A DNA stretch of 64,000 nt, from NCBI GenBank assembly GCA_032595685.2, contig CP159373.1:765001-829000 (forward strand), written 5' to 3'. This document shows, in pieces, positions 54,242 through 64,000 of this stretch. The notes beneath the pieces were generated by a model. The model saw only the letters and a program-made list of their open reading frames with translations, made no database searches and was not told where the DNA came from. How positions within the stretch are numbered: the first letter of the stretch is position 1; each line of letters begins with the position of its first letter. The translations under genes were made by a program, and so were the position numbers. The stretch comes from Candidatus Electrothrix aestuarii (GTDB lineage: Bacteria > Desulfobacterota > Desulfobulbia > Desulfobulbales > Desulfobulbaceae).

Positions 54242-54469
54242 ATGCCGCAATGCACAATAACTATACCGGAGCGTTTACAGCTCAATGTACGGGAGACTAA
54301 GAGGTTTCTGGCTGCAAAGATGTATGAGGCAGGGAAACTGTCCCTGGGTCAGGCTGCTGAACTTGCCGGACTTTCCACAAGGGCCTTTGCAGAGATTCTG
54401 GCGGATTATAATGTCTCGCTGATCAATTATCCTCCGGCGGATATCCTGCGCGATGCGGCACAGTTCTGA
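54242..54469 (+). CDS. UPF0175 family antitoxin
   Basis: 75 aa. UPF0175 proteins have a ribbon/short helical form and serve as antitoxins to PIN-like DUF3368 toxins. LGQAAELAGLSTRAFAEILADYNVSLINYP is the core of that family. A GGAG site is present 8 bp upstream. The next frame starts inside its 3' end (ATG 54453), the usual overlap with the toxin gene, but the toxin is truncated. The antitoxin itself looks complete. Confidence 0.8.
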   Translation: MPQCTITIPERLQLNVRETKRFLAAKMYEAGKLSLGQAAELAGLSTRAFAEILADYNVSLINYPPADILRDAAQF

Positions 54470-58097: not shown

Positions 58098-60035
58098 TCA
58101 AACAAAAACGGACTCCTTTTCTGATAAAAAATGCTCTGTTTCTGCTATCAATTGATCATTTCTAAAGCCTTCTTCCCCAAGTTTCTTAGGAGAAACCTGG
58201 TAATGTTGAAGCAAGCATTTCACCCTATCGTTCATACAAATATCACCTATTTTACTAAAATCATTTCCTTCAATAATCGGTAAAATATCGTCTAACTCAA
58301 CACTAGATAACGACTGATAAAGTTTTCTCCAGGAGTCGGTTAATCCATTTTTTTCACACAGCCGCCGATGCAAAATATAGGCTTCCGGCATATACAGGAT
58401 TTCAAAAAATTCCTGCTCGTCCTTTCCAAAGGCTGCTTTGAAAAAATCTAACTTTGTACCGACCTTACCTTTAGTCGCATTCAGAACGGTCTGAATTGAA
58501 CGAATAAATTTTCGGGTCCAATATTTCCCAATATAAGTCCTGCCATGATGCAACTTGTTGTCATTCCAAATCGGACTGAAACGCATAGGAAAAGAATATA
58601 TCTGCAATTCAAGCTCATTGCTCAATTCGACATTTATTCTCATTCGCCGATACAGCTCAACAGGCCTATCCTTGTGATTAAAAAGCAAATAATTTGATAA
58701 TTGTTTGATATTATGTTTTGCGGCAAGTCGAACCGCCTTTTCGTACGGCTCTGCCAGCTTCATACTGTCAAAAGCTATCCTGAGCGGCTTGATTGGAATT
58801 GTCGCAAGAAGAGCCATTTTTTCATCTGTCAACAATCGCGCATCAACGCCCTGGTTGAAATCAACATACCTATATTTAGGCGCCTTATTACGCCGATCTT
58901 CATACAATTCTTTAACGTGCTCATAAACAAAAAACAGCTGTTCACTTTCTGGAAGTAACTCAGAACAAATATCATAATCCTCAAGCAGTTGTGAATAGTT
59001 CCGAAGCGTCTCTCCTACCAGTCTAGATTGAAATTTAATGAGAATTGAATGCGCCAAGCGACGATAAGCGAGTTCATTACTACCTAGTTTCAGATTTGTT
59101 ATGGCTATTTCTAACTCATTAGGACTTACGAATTTCGCTCCCTTATAAAATCCGTTATCACGTATTTCTTGAATAATTTCAGGAAACATCTTTAATGCCA
59201 GAACATTATTATCAAGCAATAACAAATTTCTTCTCGCACCATAGGTTTGGTCGATATATTCAAGCTGTTCGGATATTGAAAGGTATTCTTTAAAGACAGG
59301 CTCTAAAACAGGAACTGCGCAGAACTCGCATTTACGTATACAACCACGCGATGTATATCCGTAGTAGCCATCGTGCTCAGGATATGTATAATCAATTTCT
59401 TCAAGAATTGAATAATCTGGAGGTAATTGGTCAATTATGGCTGTATCTCCCTCGTCCAAAATACCGGGCGTATCTAGCAAGCCAACAATAGGTTCAATTC
59501 CTGTCGCTTCCTCAACCTCATCCGGTATCAAAGAGGCCATTACGCCACCGACGAAAACCATACTTTCATCTGAGACTAATTTTTTACTGTACTCAATTGT
59601 TTCAACAGTCTTTTTAAAATAGAAAGTAAATAAAGAGGTTACGCAAACCCGATCCCACATGGCGCAACTCTCAACACGACCTGCTCGATAGGCTTTATTG
59701 TAATATTTCAACCAATGAACAATGGACGGGGAAAAAATACCACTTAACCCCGAAATTCGAGCTAAAGCAGTTTTTCTTCCATATTGAATGAATTGCGCGA
59801 TAAGTGTAGCGTGGCACTTCCAATCTATCCGATTATCGATAGAGTAGAATTTTTCTATAATGGTCTCAGCATATAGCTCGACGACAAGCTTACGTAAGTC
59901 TCCTTTATAAAAACGCACATAATCACCCCGCTTCCGGTGATACGCCGCTAATTTCATCAATCCAAGAGGCGGATATTTGTTCCTGTATCCAGGTTCAACA
60001 AGAAGTACTCGCCTCTGCTTCGGCGAGTTACTCAT
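58098..60035 (-). CDS. Radical SAM protein with B12-binding-like N-terminus (accessory module)
   Basis: 645 aa. Residues 1-200 have the look of a cobalamin-binding-type Rossmann region (RVLLVEPGYRNKYPPLGLMKLAAYHR, then VFVGGVMASLIPDEVEE), but lack the DxHxxG cobalamin motif. The radical SAM cluster motif is at C232-x3-C236-x2-C239 (RGCIRKCEFCAVP). Domain then continues as a TIM-like barrel (LLLDNNVLAL, NQGVDARLL). The last ~120 residues are unassigned. Function unknown. Its start overlaps the HSP90-like gene by 8 bp, so it is part of the same translational unit. Low-GC DNA, unlike the peptidase and dtd genes beside it, suggests acquisition. Confidence 0.75.
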   Translation of the reverse strand: MSNSPKQRRVLLVEPGYRNKYPPLGLMKLAAYHRKRGDYVRFYKGDLRKLVVELYAETIIEKFYSIDNRIDWKCHATLIAQFIQYGRKTALARISGLSGIFSPSIVHWLKYYNKAYRAGRVESCAMWDRVCVTSLFTFYFKKTVETIEYSKKLVSDESMVFVGGVMASLIPDEVEEATGIEPIVGLLDTPGILDEGDTAIIDQLPPDYSILEEIDYTYPEHDGYYGYTSRGCIRKCEFCAVPVLEPVFKEYLSISEQLEYIDQTYGARRNLLLLDNNVLALKMFPEIIQEIRDNGFYKGAKFVSPNELEIAITNLKLGSNELAYRRLAHSILIKFQSRLVGETLRNYSQLLEDYDICSELLPESEQLFFVYEHVKELYEDRRNKAPKYRYVDFNQGVDARLLTDEKMALLATIPIKPLRIAFDSMKLAEPYEKAVRLAAKHNIKQLSNYLLFNHKDRPVELYRRMRINVELSNELELQIYSFPMRFSPIWNDNKLHHGRTYIGKYWTRKFIRSIQTVLNATKGKVGTKLDFFKAAFGKDEQEFFEILYMPEAYILHRRLCEKNGLTDSWRKLYQSLSSVELDDILPIIEGNDFSKIGDICMNDRVKCLLQHYQVSPKKLGEEGFRNDQLIAETEHFLSEKESVFV

Positions 60036-61770
60036 GAAACTTTGTTAATTTGAATCGTTCTTCGATTTTAGCAAACAAATTCTGCTGGAGATCAGGTGGT
60101 AAAATAATCCTGCTTATTTCAAGTATCTCTCCTACAATCTTTTGTTCTTTTTTAGTTAACTTAGTTAATCCACTCGTTATATATTTCCTTCCATTTTTTT
60201 TTGAGGGTATTTTTTTGTGAGCCTGTTCTTTCTTCTCTTGCTTATTAGCGTCAGGTTCACTGTAGTTAACTTGACCTGGAGAACACTTTACCGGCTCACT
60301 AGCCTTGGTATCTTTTTCAACATTTTTAGGATGCTTTTGCAACTGCTCCCCAGCTATCTCTAAGGAATTTCTCTTCTCTTTCTCTCTATTCTCATGACTT
60401 GGAACAATCTTTTCGCCAAGTCGGTATTCAATAAACCGTTTCAGGTCCTCGTCATCTTCGGCATATTTTTTAATACGTTCCAACTCCTTTTGAGCCTGTT
60501 TTGCCGCCTCCTCTAATAAATCTAGCTTGCTTTTTTCTTCCTTCTCATGATTTGGCCCATAGAATCCAGTGGTTTTCAGAAGGTCATTATATTTTTCCTT
60601 ACCAATTGCATAGGCACTCACTTGCTTTTCAAAACGGTTCCAATCGGATGCTTTACGACAAAGTTTATGAAGTTTATTTGTTAATTCATCCAGTTCTGCT
60701 TCGAATTCACTTAACAGCTCACACTCATCAAAGTAATCACGCTGCCCATTCGGAAATAATTCTTCATGCACCACATGAATTTCGCCGAAAAAATAGTGAT
60801 GAAAACGTTTATCCTGAAAAAATCGCTGTAGTGTAACTTCATCTCCGACCTGTATATTTCCTTTTCGAAATCGTATTCCCCGTGCTTCATTAACAACAGG
60901 TATTAGCTGCATATTCTTAGTCAGCGTATACCAGCCAACAGCAAGTAGTTTATTTTCTATTGAATACAAGTCAAAAAAACGAATATCAATAACATCATCT
61001 AGTCGTTTCTCCTGCTTCTTGGCCTCTTTATATACGCCGCCACGATAGGATTTAAACAATTGGCTTTCATTTACAAAGACTCGATAACTTTTAGGTGAAA
61101 TGCCTTTTTTAATAAGACCTTCCTTTATTTTAGGAGTCAGGATAAGCTTCGGAGAGCAAAAATCAACCGGGGCCACCATCCGTAAATATCTCTCAACCTC
61201 ATCGACATCAAGCAGCTTTGTGTTTTTTACCTCTTCTAATGTAACTTTAAAGTAGTGCTCTCCTTCTTGCTCCATCACCCCATCATCTATCGCCGTGATA
61301 GCCTCAATTACCTCAGATGCACGCTTTCTGTCCTTCTTATCAGCGATAATCTCTTTAAGCTTCTGTCCATCCCATTGCAGAACAGTTTTCGTTGCTTCCC
61401 CCTTAAACGAGGTTTCTATAATCAGCTCATCACAATAGGCCAATCCCGCCAGACGACCGATACCACGAAAGCCTAAATTCTTGGTTCTGTCTTTTCCTGA
61501 AGCAGCAATACTTGTGAGGATTTGCCAAGCATTCTTTCTTGAAACACCTACCCCATTATCTTCAAAAAAAATCCGTTTCTTTTCTTTATCAACAACAATC
61601 TGTACATAACCTTCAGAAACATCCTCTAAAATCCCTCTACTAACAGCCTCGTTAATTGCATCAACCGAATTTTGCACATACTCCCGAAAAATCACCAACG
61701 GATTATGGTACATCCCCGTTGTGAGGATTTCGATTATATTTTTTCCTATAATGACAGAGTCAGAACTCAT
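60028..61770 (-). CDS. HSP90-like GHKL ATPase (accessory module)
   Basis: 580 aa. GHKL ATPase of HSP90 type in the N-terminal ~230 residues: IFREYVQNSVDAI (N34 N-box), FEDNGVGV (70-77), and the ATP-lid loop NLGFRGIGRLAGLAYCDEL (98-116). The middle portion (to ~370) has the second HSP90-like fold (YFFGEIHVVHEELFPNGQRDYFDECEL). Residues 400-540 are Lys/Glu-rich and probably coiled coil or disordered. The C-terminal 45 residues form a helix. It follows the truncated HerA-like gene by 5 bp and overlaps the radical SAM gene. Cluster suggests a nucleic-acid or protein-remodelling conflict system; this is inference. Confidence 0.78.
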   Translation of the reverse strand: MSSDSVIIGKNIIEILTTGMYHNPLVIFREYVQNSVDAINEAVSRGILEDVSEGYVQIVVDKEKKRIFFEDNGVGVSRKNAWQILTSIAASGKDRTKNLGFRGIGRLAGLAYCDELIIETSFKGEATKTVLQWDGQKLKEIIADKKDRKRASEVIEAITAIDDGVMEQEGEHYFKVTLEEVKNTKLLDVDEVERYLRMVAPVDFCSPKLILTPKIKEGLIKKGISPKSYRVFVNESQLFKSYRGGVYKEAKKQEKRLDDVIDIRFFDLYSIENKLLAVGWYTLTKNMQLIPVVNEARGIRFRKGNIQVGDEVTLQRFFQDKRFHHYFFGEIHVVHEELFPNGQRDYFDECELLSEFEAELDELTNKLHKLCRKASDWNRFEKQVSAYAIGKEKYNDLLKTTGFYGPNHEKEEKSKLDLLEEAAKQAQKELERIKKYAEDDEDLKRFIEYRLGEKIVPSHENREKEKRNSLEIAGEQLQKHPKNVEKDTKASEPVKCSPGQVNYSEPDANKQEKKEQAHKKIPSKKNGRKYITSGLTKLTKKEQKIVGEILEISRIILPPDLQQNLFAKIEERFKLTKFHE

Positions 61771-61775
61771 AGCTA

Positions 61776-62909
61776 CTACTTCTCCTGAAAATAAATAGGT
61801 CGCGGAAAACGTATGTGAAGCGGTGAAGTGAAAACAGGATTTTGCACAATGTACTCTCCCTGACTCAATCGTACCATCATATTCTTGTATACTCTCGGGA
61901 TGTAGCTGTAATCTTTCTTTGACACTTCAATCGTATTTGTCCGACCATACGCATGTGTTGAGCAATTCCCTTTAACTCGTTCGTGGATAGCACTTTTAAA
62001 CTGTTCCGCTGAAAACAGAACTATCCCCAAGGAACGACCACGTTCTGATATATCAATTATCTGTCTTAGAATGGGTGAATTCTTCGGCAAATCTGACCCT
62101 GCGTATTTATTCAGCTCATCTATGAAAACAATAATTCTGGAAGGAATATTTTTCTCATTATCTGTGAGTTGCCCAAGCTTGAGATCATAAATTGTCCTGA
62201 TCACATCGCCAAAAACAAAAGATTGCAAGTTTTCGTCAAGTTTTGCAATATCAACTACAAAGACCTCGTTTTCCTTAATCTTCTCCAATTCGGAACTCAG
62301 TCGAACTTCGCCTCGTTCAGGTACCACCCGGTTTCCAAACATACTATTTTTCAGTGACTTGGAGATAATCCGCTTGAACTTTCTCCAGCTCTGCACGGTG
62401 ATGTCCTTGTCAGGGCGACCACTGTTTGCCTTACCATATTCGCTGATTTCATTTTCCAGCCTATCCCAATCACGAATTCCCGCAAAGCTTCCTTGTCTTG
62501 ACTGAATATAATGACACGCAGATTCCATTGTTCCTGTCGCATCTTCAATGTTTGCAAAAAGGAGATCCAGACTATCAAGATCTTCATCAAAAATGTACTT
62601 ATAACGAAATCCTTTCTTCTCTTCTATCAGTTCATCAACATAATTTTTCTGGGCGTATGTGTTGGAAAAGTCTTCCTGCTCATACGGAAAAAAATATTTT
62701 ACGTTTTCAAAAGGTTTCGGTTCAATACCAAGCTCCTCATATCGTTTGGCATCTGTTTCTGTAAATTGGTCAGAATCGGGTCTCTTGTCCAGCGTCAGCA
62801 AATCTCGACCTTTAACGTTGATGACAACAAACGCAACCGATTCGTCACCAAACGGTTTGTCCTCTCCAATTTGGCTCATTCGATGCTGGATACCTTTTAA
62901 CAAAAACAT
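61776..62909 (-). CDS. HerA-like (DUF87-type) ATPase, N-terminal truncated
   Basis: 377 aa of the C-terminal two-thirds of a HerA/FtsK-type hexameric ATPase. Walker B is RIIVFIDELNKYA (D264-E265), then SERGRSLGIVLFSAEQFKSA and STHAYGRT as in HerA. The frame opens with FLLKGIQHR, the helix that in complete proteins comes straight after Walker A, and VVINVKGRDLL follows. Walker A itself and the N-terminal HAS-barrel are missing; the DNA upstream belongs to an ISAzo13-type element starting within about 60 bp. The frame continues open upstream but with unrelated codons. So this is a 5'-truncated gene, unlikely to hydrolyse ATP. A piece about 150 residues long should have preceded it. Confidence 0.72.
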   Translation of the reverse strand: MFLLKGIQHRMSQIGEDKPFGDESVAFVVINVKGRDLLTLDKRPDSDQFTETDAKRYEELGIEPKPFENVKYFFPYEQEDFSNTYAQKNYVDELIEEKKGFRYKYIFDEDLDSLDLLFANIEDATGTMESACHYIQSRQGSFAGIRDWDRLENEISEYGKANSGRPDKDITVQSWRKFKRIISKSLKNSMFGNRVVPERGEVRLSSELEKIKENEVFVVDIAKLDENLQSFVFGDVIRTIYDLKLGQLTDNEKNIPSRIIVFIDELNKYAGSDLPKNSPILRQIIDISERGRSLGIVLFSAEQFKSAIHERVKGNCSTHAYGRTNTIEVSKKDYSYIPRVYKNMMVRLSQGEYIVQNPVFTSPLHIRFPRPIYFQEK

Positions 62910-62967
62910 TGGAATGTAAAAAAAATAACTTCCCGATTTGCTCCACTGCTGTAAAATATCCTGTATT

Positions 62968-64000
62968 ATGAAAACAGCACATTACACATCAGAAGTAGAG
63001 GAAGGCATGCAGCTATTTGCAGCAACACTTAATGAACGAGATTTTCGTCGCTATGCGGCAATCGAAGCTCTAAAGTTGGGGCACGGCGGTATTAGCTACA
63101 TTTCAAAGTTGTTATCCCTTGATCCCAAAACAATTTCTAAAGGAATCAAGGAGATTTTAAAAAAACATTAAATCATGAATATATCAGGAAGCCTGGAGGC
63201 GGTCGTTCGTATATTGATGAGAAATATCCCAATATTCACAAGGTTTTTCTGTCGATAATTAAAGAACATACCGCTGGATGCCCGATGAATGATGACATTC
63301 GCTGGACGTATCTAACCCACCACGAAATTGTCGAAAAATTAGCGAAGAAAAAAATCTTTATTAGCTCTCCCACTGTTGCTGATTTACTCAAGTTTCATGG
63401 CTTTAAAAAGCGTAAAATGAGCCAATGCAAGACAATCAAAGATGTTGAAAACAGAGATGAACAATTCATAAATATAGAGAGACTACGTAATATCTACACC
63501 CAAGCAGGAGAACCAGTTGTCAGTGTTGACAGCAAGAAAAAGGAACCGTTTGGCAGTTTGTATCGAGAAGGTGAAGTCTATTCAACAAGTTCCCCTGAAG
63601 TATATGATCATAGCTTTGCTTCCTTGCAAACCGGTTTATCCGTACCTCATGGCATTTTTGATATCAATAAAAATAAAGCATGTGTTAACATAGGGTTGTC
63701 TCGCGATACCGCCGAGTTTTTCTATGACAGTATGGTTTTGTGGTGGGAGACTTATGGAAAGATTGAGTACCCTGATGCTAGAAAATTGTTAATTCTTTGT
63801 GATGGTGGTGGTTCAAATGGTTGCAGACATTATGTTTTCAAGGAAGCTGTGCAAAAATTAGCCAATACGCTTGGTCTTAGTATTCGTATTGCCCATTATC
63901 CGGCCTATTGCTCAAAATATAACCCCATAGAACACAGGGTTTTCCCTCATATAACCAGAGCGTTATCCGGTGTTGTCCTGGATAGTGTACAGACAGTGAA
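62968..64000 (+). mobile_element. ISAzo13-family insertion sequence, right end beyond the window
   Basis: The element enters from the left end near 62910-62968, where the HerA-like gene is cut, and extends past base 64000. It holds the two-frame transposase described below. Terminal inverted repeats and target duplication cannot be identified from one end alone. Confidence 0.7.
62968..64000 (+). CDS. ISAzo13-family transposase, two frames joined by a -1 shift, 3' end outside
   Basis: Frame 1 (62968-63171, 67 aa) has a helix-turn-helix (KLLSLDPKTISKGIKEIL). It ends at TAA after a run of seven A (63159-63165). Reading back by one base continues as KPGGGRSYIDEKYPNIH and stays open to base 64000, giving the rest of the catalytic part: VSVDSKKKE, LLILCDGGGSN and HYPAYCSKYNPIEHR, the DDE positions of ISAzo13 (Rhodopirellula-type) transposases. 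The run of A followed closely by the stop resembles a programmed -1 frameshift site. A simple inactivating mutation is the alternative. The rest of the frame shows no other stop, which favours the programmed reading. Confidence 0.82.

Follow-up and report, generated by a model that had tools for sequence, protein, structure and literature searches.

What do three tightly packed genes for a HerA-like ATPase, an HSP90-like ATPase and a radical S-adenosylmethionine (SAM) enzyme do together in Candidatus Electrothrix aestuarii? The genes occupy positions 58,098 to 62,909 of a 64,000-nucleotide stretch of this organism (GenBank assembly GCA_032595685.2, contig CP159373.1, positions 765,001 to 829,000 of the forward strand; hereafter the window), and the source genome (G000) is a single contig of 5.1 Mb. 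An initial annotation, made from the letters of the window alone, had reported the cluster as cut by an insertion element, could name no described system with these three genes, suspected a role in defence, and considered this copy to be probably dead. Its three-gene observation was right but incomplete: they make up the 3′ portion of an operon of four genes, nurA–herA–HSP90-like–radical SAM, whose nurA lies upstream of herA, outside the window, in an open reading frame. The operon is undescribed as far as the open-access literature searched shows, and that literature yielded no described system with the three genes first noticed. The cluster is very probably a defence-type system, conserved across many phyla.

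A four-gene operon conserved across phyla

A search of genome contigs with an alignment of eight radical SAM sequences returned at least 530 relatives, the best 80 of which were kept as loci. Sixty-nine of these had at least 5 kb of upstream DNA and were testable; the 11 loci with less than 5 kb were excluded from the count that follows. The nurA, herA, HSP90-like and radical SAM genes were found together on one strand in 62 of the 69 loci, a figure that scores presence rather than intactness (the HSP90-like gene is in two pieces in L026, L034, and L061), and because of this recurrence the grouping is far beyond chance. The order NurA–HerA–HSP90–radical SAM occurred without an insert in 50 of the 80 loci, and the median gaps within the operon were 2 bp (nurA–herA), 1 bp (herA–HSP90), and −4 bp (HSP90–radical SAM). 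Among the taxa named in the titles of full-operon loci are Bacteroidota, Bacillota, Thermodesulfobacteriota, Acidobacteriota, Ignavibacteriota, Lentisphaerota, and Melainabacteria; one sequence recurs unchanged as L047 and L048, in metagenome-assembled genomes of two phyla, probably through a binning error. Uninterrupted copies are present in G021 and in the faecal phage-labelled contig MT836743. The adjacency on which the initial annotation had staked its case was therefore borne out by the relatives, some of which have a further module inserted after the HSP90-like gene and before the radical SAM gene. The annotation had also proposed finding intact copies with the HSP90-like protein; such copies came to light through the radical SAM alignment, whereas the single-sequence search of the genome contigs with the HSP90-like protein gave 67 pattern-matching stretches, none of which was confirmed. 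Among the seven exceptions, the radical SAM gene adjoined a CL0–HSP90 pair encoded on the opposite strand in L051, L062, and L096, and the order was HSP90–CL0–radical SAM in L052 (an Altiarchaeales archaeon), AAA–CL3–HSP90–radical SAM in L075, and HSP90–radical SAM in L098 (CL0 and CL3 are accessory families described below).

The nearest sampled relative with the operon, G001, belongs to the same genus as the source and carries whole herA, HSP90-like, and radical SAM genes. Relative to G001, the ratio of nonsynonymous to synonymous substitution rates (dN/dS) was 0.046 and 0.048 for the two parts of HerA and 0.072 for NurA (122 residues compared); the HSP90-like and radical SAM proteins had ratios of 0.147 and 0.087, respectively. 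The split of herA in G000 would suit a cluster formed by chance or a dead relic with no system behind it, but this explanation is already contradicted by the conserved operon, with uninterrupted copies across phyla and dN/dS values of 0.05-0.15 in all parts, and we consider it barely credible. The nurA homology of G001 (L016:9879-10380) stops at codon 250, approximately 70 bp before the contig end, and no trace of the insertion element of the window was seen at that stop; this copy of nurA may be interrupted too, by something other than that element.

A protein of 485-1,054 residues is encoded after the operon in 11 loci with Bacteroidales-type titles (L044, L046, L059, L067, L070, L079, L080, L083, L086, L092, and L094). 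The one checked, from L092, has parts that resemble the C-terminal domain of the RNA polymerase alpha subunit and, weakly, sigma region 4.

HerA and NurA are homologues of the Deinococcus radiodurans pair

No Pfam match above the cut-off was obtained for HerA. Its profile matched D. radiodurans HerA (7f6d chain B) at 3.3e-49, in agreement with the HerA-type ATPase first proposed, and the motifs GISGLA.KTS and DELNK were kept in 71 of 71 full-length homologues. NurA likewise lacked a Pfam match and gave a best E value of 0.068 in a sequence search of the PDB. The NurA model (predicted local distance difference test score, pLDDT, of 88.6) had D. radiodurans NurA (7f6d chain G) as its sole Foldseek match at E ≤0.001 (8.5e-13), and VIA-align superposed 300 residues of the two with Z 21.5 and a root-mean-square deviation (rmsd) of 3.8; the corresponding Z scores were 19.2 for TM1739 and 16.5 for Sulfolobus NurA. 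Three NurA motifs, which we take to be the catalytic ones, were kept in 69 of 69 homologues. Both proteins are true homologues of their Deinococcus counterparts, and the likeness extends to a HerA subfamily with an unusual Walker A (GISG-A-KTS), to the NurA fold, and to the adjacency of the genes.

Patchy distribution and defence-rich surroundings

Three phylum samples, 1,090 genomes in all with 395 Bacteroidota and 398 Bacillota among them, contained the radical SAM family in 5/297, 6/395, and 7/398 genomes. Five of these 18 carriers were known beforehand or were the search centre (G000, G057, G059, G064, and G493, the last on the same contig as L039). The surroundings of the 80 loci were scanned with PADLOC at a threshold of 1e-10. 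Removal of five conserved accessory clusters reduced 233 neighbours to 212, of which 140 were scanned, and the control consisted of 128 out of 249 open reading frames (ORFs) located elsewhere in six of the genomes. The neighbours matched 191 PADLOC families versus 24 for the control ORFs; what is counted here is families rather than proteins, and many of the family models overlap. CBASS-type cyclase, Lamassu, DarG, and Cas3 models were among the 25 families listed of the 191, and genes for integrases, relaxases, and conjugation were present in these neighbourhoods as well. The suspicion of a defence role is thus strengthened by both the patchy spread and the defence-rich neighbourhood.

The operon also appears to be mobile, being present in some close genomes and absent from others. 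Nothing lies between dtd and rsmE in G006, a member of the source genus. The corresponding interval of G007, with flanks about 97% identical, contains a restriction–modification pair and further genes but none of the four operon genes, and in that of G001 the operon lies on the dtd side. These observations bear on whether the genes form a DNA-repair operon, in which HerA and NurA would resect ends and the radical SAM enzyme would repair lesions in the manner of spore photoproduct lyase. The kinship of sequence and fold to the D. radiodurans proteins speaks for such a role, since that pair is end-resection machinery in the available text of PMC12977600 and PMC9960219, which mentions no HSP90-like or radical SAM partner. 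Repair would, however, be hard to reconcile with an operon gene found in 1-2% of the genomes of each phylum sample and set among defence genes, with its absence from G007 between nearly identical flanks, and with the exchange with methyltransferases described below; we regard it as very unlikely.

The radical SAM enzyme has a class-B fold

The Pfam match of the radical SAM protein (6e-4) was below the cut-off and weak when taken alone. The assignment made in the initial annotation, with cysteines C232, C236, and C239, is upheld by the CxxxCxxC motif in 84 of 85 homologues (the exception is L026) and by the fold; in the eight-sequence alignment these three cysteines and no others are invariant. 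The protein also has a VDFNQGxD signature. Its model (pLDDT 90) shows a cobalamin-type Rossmann domain before the barrel, and the fold matches, which include cobalamin-dependent and cobalamin-independent enzymes, were AprD4 (Z 13.9, rmsd 3.8, 358 residues aligned), MgmA (13.7), TsrM (13.2), MiaB (11.6), and OxsB (11.3). By this predicted fold the enzyme is of the class-B type. The profile had no meaningful match among PDB sequences, and RimO was a weak profile match (0.0024). The methylthiotransferases MiaB and RimO carry extra N-terminal cysteines for an auxiliary cluster. Methylthiolation of the MiaB/RimO kind was rejected because no cysteine beyond the three of the motif is invariant in the eight-sequence alignment.

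Two restriction-type platforms share the radical SAM family

The genomic contexts of the 18 carriers fell into a few kinds. Two genomes were left out of the context reading, G613, which is a fragment containing one stop and accounts for one of the 18, and G1041. Eleven had NurA–HerA–HSP90; in four (G227, G764, G919, and G1067) the radical SAM gene directly adjoined a trio encoding HKD/SF2, CxC-ABC, and DndE-like proteins; one (G145) had an HSP90-like gene with a DndB-family gene; and in one (G249) the gene stood alone. Among the 395 Bacteroidota, a long radical SAM gene was present in five genomes and a strong HerA (>800 bits) in the same five, on the same contigs; three of these (G057, G059, and G493) were already among the 80 loci, and the sixth genome, G536, had only a distant HerA. 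The seven carriers among the 398 Bacillota comprised four with NurA–HerA–HSP90 and three with the trio. HerA itself was found in 12 Bacillota genomes, four of them with the radical SAM gene, seven with an adenine-type DNA methyltransferase-like protein of about 1,090 residues, and one unread. The methyltransferase identity of the large protein rests on the DPACGSGTF and NPPW motifs, present in seven of seven (one with S for A), and the one protein tried had no PDB match. Five of the seven loci have a second methyltransferase-like protein of about 420 residues that matches a putative modification methylase (2e-5); the remaining two, L174 and L175, have a distantly related other radical SAM gene (506-512 codons) after a gene for a 239- or 300-residue protein.

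The trio lies beside a radical SAM homologue in L182, L183, L184, and L189, its DndE being assigned by place and its CxC hook being present in three of the three checked; the DndE-like protein and the DNA of its locus had no plasmid match. PMC10853773 describes the CxC–DndE platform as taking on DNA methylases or phosphorothioation (Dnd) genes as partners. Two unrelated restriction-type platforms thus pair with either a DNA-modifying enzyme or the radical SAM enzyme, so that the latter occupies the position that a DNA-modifying enzyme otherwise holds. It is chiefly from this genome context that we infer that the radical SAM enzyme modifies DNA, and we lean towards its being the DNA-marking part of a restriction–modification-like immunity.

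The enzyme might instead modify one of the system's own proteins, such as HerA, NurA, or the HSP90-like ATPase at a side chain, and thereby mature or arm the nuclease, with the HSP90-like ATPase recognizing the invader. MgmA, a protein glutamine methylase, is among the best fold matches, the RimO profile match points in the same direction, and some operons have two HSP90 modules served by one radical SAM gene. Protein modification would leave unexplained why the same enzyme stands beside the unrelated CxC-ABC–DndE-like–HKD/SF2 platform and why sister NurA–HerA pairs have DNA methyltransferases, and we find it doubtful.

HSP90-like ATPases accompany exchangeable modules

The HSP90-like protein matched Pfam HATPase_c_3 (1.5e-13) and an HtpG N-terminal profile (2e-13), consistent with the HSP90-type GHKL ATPase of the initial annotation. 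Kinship over the full length of HSP90/HtpG was not found: among the best 60 of 146 PDB sequences, the best stretches ended by about residue 136. The N-box pattern was present in 74 of 77 proteins. The HSP90-like protein of the window also weakly matched phage RIIA lysis-inhibitor families (1.3e-5), and a link of T4-type RIIA to the HSP90-like ATPase family is possible.

Nuclease modules are exchanged around the radical SAM gene. In some operons second modules, each with an HSP90-like gene of its own, are inserted before it and consist of either an AAA_15 ATPase with a protein of 270-295 residues (CL2–CL3) or a protein of about 330 residues (CL0); PDB profile searches with the CL0 and CL3 families gave no match. 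On alphaproteobacterial plasmids one unit comprises a DpdB/DndB-family gene together with the radical SAM and HSP90-like genes, with a PIN-like–HSP90 pair nearby in three of four regions and a further DndB-family gene in two of four. G021 has a DpdB-like gene (PADLOC DpdB, 2e-36) and a beta-lactamase-fold gene after the radical SAM gene, and L037 also has a DpdB/DndB-family gene near it. A second locus in the source genome (G000:C1, about 2,170,690-2,176,131; L018:7691-13132) holds an HSP90-like gene and a short radical SAM gene, with the gene for a DndB–Swt1-like-HEPN fusion running divergently from them, all in open frames. A tree of 104 HSP90-like proteins required seven label changes by module, whereas shuffled labels required 34.8 on average and none of the 200 shuffles gave so low a number; the labels were taken from the neighbours, and two long branches leave some placements unsure. 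Because the HSP90-like proteins of each module (NurA–HerA, AAA–CL3, CL0, PIN, and DpdB) tend to form a lineage specific to that module and one radical SAM gene is common to them, the HSP90-like ATPase may act as a module switch.

The variety of effectors that go with the radical SAM family (NurA–HerA, AAA–CL3, PIN, and HEPN, two of them with RNase-type domains) would also suit an enzyme that makes a small antiviral or signalling molecule on infection, in the manner of viperin or of cyclic-oligonucleotide-based antiphage signalling systems (CBASS), with HSP90-like ATPases gating the effectors. No ligand sensor domain was recognized, however, the nearest folds are class-B, and a viperin-like enzyme came far down the fold list of the model (Z 6.8); we consider this route unlikely. 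Viperin itself was rejected since the PADLOC pVip models matched neither of the two radical SAM proteins tried, those of the window and of G021.

Radical SAM homologues in phages

Searching viral contigs with the radical SAM alignment gave 47 viral loci, and a single-sequence search of the viral contigs with the phage-contig homologue gave 32 pattern stretches and no homologue. Short stand-alone radical SAM genes of PHROG 9298 occur in phages, and the gene adjoins or lies within two genes of a DNA methyltransferase in two of four annotated phage regions (L147 and L148). In Marinitoga camini virus 1 (L146, 5998-9824), radical SAM, HerA, and NurA genes occur together with no HSP90-like gene in the stretch examined; its HerA is 31% identical to that of G021, and its NurA is 24% identical to that of the source genome. 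A radical SAM enzyme may also take part in phage thymidine hypermodification. The phage copies would suit a counter-defence in which the mark of the host is copied.

A proposed self-mark read by two nuclease platforms

Taken together, we propose that the radical SAM enzyme writes a novel self-mark that is read by at least two unrelated restriction platforms (HerA–NurA and CxC-ABC–DndE-like–HKD/SF2), themselves usually licensed by a dedicated HSP90-like ATPase, and is copied by stand-alone phage enzymes as counter-defence; we assign this complete reading a probability of roughly 40%. The radical SAM enzyme would write the mark on the DNA of the cell itself, the HerA ring would pump unmarked DNA into the NurA dimer, and that dimer would degrade the DNA so delivered. 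The HSP90-like ATPase would act as a dimerizing ATP switch, loading or licensing the nuclease module that it accompanies.

Several observations weigh against this proposal. The radical SAM gene is the last of the operon, behind the nuclease, an awkward position for a protective enzyme, and modules with RNase-type domains (PIN_8 and Swt1-like HEPN) travel with it, which DNA marking alone does not explain. The association of the parts is incomplete: in L084, one of the seven exceptions above, nurA and herA are followed by two other ORFs and the radical SAM gene, and the stretch from herA to the radical SAM gene gave no HSP90 match, no HSP90-like gene was seen near the CxC-type locus L182, and the radical SAM gene is alone in L190. 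The radical SAM enzyme may not bind cobalamin, since AprD4, the best fold match, is not known to depend on it. The G1 and G2 patterns of the HSP90-like proteins, as written for this analysis, were present in 65 and 61 of 77, and some of these proteins may be weak ATPases. In phages the proximity of methyltransferases is partial: 120 of 163 listed viral neighbours, hand-picked after short, opposite-strand, and near-duplicate ones were dropped and considered without a control set, included N6_N4_Mtase (3), DNA_methylase (3), and Dam (2).

If the proposal is true, a radical SAM DNA-marking enzyme would join the known writers of restriction–modification. It would define a new class of DNA modification in immunity, in which HSP90-type switches are paired one-to-one with effectors, so that HSP90-like ATPases would become effector-specific switches, and it would give a reason for the orphan radical SAM genes of phages. 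The mark would be one to look for in Bacteroidota, Clostridia, and Desulfobulbaceae, for example in Roseburia faecis M72, Blautia luti MSK.16.34, Dysgonomonas macrotermitis DSM 27370, and Desulfogranum marinum DSM 2058.

Comparison with known systems

TdpABC, which we take to be a phosphorothioation-linked anti-phage system of thermophiles (structure 8wfd), likewise couples a NurA-type nuclease (TdpB) and a HerA-type ring ATPase (TdpA) to DNA modification, and the NurA model aligned to chain G of TdpAB over 239 residues (Z 15.0, rmsd 3.8). It differs in that no PP-loop sulfur enzyme TdpC was recognized among the conserved neighbours, where no TdpC model was used, and in that the role of modifier would here fall to a radical SAM enzyme, with an HSP90-like ATPase as an additional component. 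The Dpd system, which places 7-deazaguanine in DNA, and the Dnd system have counterparts in the DpdB/DndB-family proteins near the radical SAM gene in G021, L037, the alphaproteobacterial plasmids, and the second locus of the source genome, where the protein is fused to HEPN. In contrast, no DpdA transglycosylase or DndC was recognized at the radical SAM loci, neither being searched with its own model, and no DpdB-like gene is adjacent at the locus of the window.

HerA also has partners in anti-phage complexes, presumably DUF4297 and Sir2. In the available part of PMC11291478, such complexes join a HerA ring ATPase to a partner effector in phage defence; the nuclease partner, the HSP90-like protein, and the radical SAM protein set the present operon apart, and the PADLOC HerA models matched weakly. 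Systems of the CxC-ABC–DndE–HKD/SF2 kind (PbeABCD) resemble the trio that the radical SAM family adjoins in four sampled relatives. This trio was not found at the locus of the window, and the partners named in the portions of PMC10853773 available, DNA methylases or Dnd genes, do not include a comparable radical SAM enzyme. The capture systems related to bacteriophage exclusion (BREX), in the main text of PMC12839542, also combine a HerA translocase with a presumed base-modifying enzyme (tRNA-guanine transglycosylase, TGT) for self/non-self marking. They differ in having PglZ, DUF6079, DUF4007, and STAND proteins, and that main text contains no NurA, HSP90, or radical SAM.

The interrupted locus

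The coordinates of the three minus-strand ORFs were reproduced (Table 1), including the 5-bp gap between the herA and HSP90-like genes and the 8-bp overlap of the HSP90-like and radical SAM genes. The low-GC setting was confirmed as well, with a GC content of about 0.37-0.41 in the three-gene block versus 0.51-0.54 in the 4 kb to its left.

Table 1. Positions of the genes and of the insertion element at the split operon; equivalent positions extend the window numbering beyond position 64,000.
Feature	Position	Strand	Basis or remark
Radical SAM enzyme, class-B fold (predicted), 645 aa, intact	58098..60035	minus	ORF list, profiles, fold
HSP90/GHKL-type ATPase, 580 aa, intact	60028..61770	minus	ORF list, profiles
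HerA C-terminal two thirds, 377 aa, with Walker B DELNK and ERGRSLG stretch	61776..62909	minus	ORF list, profile
Left copy of 5-bp target-site duplication	62907..62911	none	Direct repeat flanking element
ISAzo13-type insertion element, 1,291 bp	62912..64000 in window; end at equivalent position 64202	plus	Pfam, repeats
Transposase frame of element, 296 aa in all	63285..63998	plus	ORF list, Pfam; runs past window end
HerA first 181 codons, with Walker A	G000:C1:829203-829745 (window equivalent 64203-64745)		Outside window
Eco57I-type DNA methyltransferase	Window equivalent 66105-67637 (L002:9106-10638)		Outside window; beside split operon

The element that cuts the cluster is of the ISAzo13 type, as annotated. 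Its transposase matched PF07592 at 1.9e-77, its ends are inverted repeats flanked by the 5-bp direct repeat, and two further identical full-length copies make three in all in the source genome. The break in herA lies three codons past the lysine-threonine-serine of Walker A, leaving Walker A and Walker B on opposite sides of the element. The initial annotation had thus placed the break correctly, but herA is interrupted rather than merely truncated. Low dN/dS values relative to G001 in both HerA parts make the split look recent. The verdict that the copy is probably dead applies to the nuclease arm only; the nurA, HSP90-like, and radical SAM genes remain open with low dN/dS. A broken degrading arm beside an open, presumed marking arm would be the loss order that restriction–modification systems tolerate.

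Beyond the N-terminal part of herA are a 392-codon gene (window equivalent 64760-65938) and then the Eco57I-type methyltransferase. The latter was rejected as the modification partner because it occurs in G007 without any of the four operon genes and belongs to no conserved neighbour cluster elsewhere. Its homologue in G007 (96% identity) lies next to a BsuBI/PstI-type restriction enzyme (PF06616, 9.6e-61). Since the pair is complete in G007 and the restriction enzyme is absent from G000, the methyltransferase is probably the orphan of a lost BsuBI/PstI-type restriction–modification pair. On the other side of the operon genes, a 75-codon ORF at window positions 54242-54469 presumably encodes a protein resembling UPF0175-type antitoxins.

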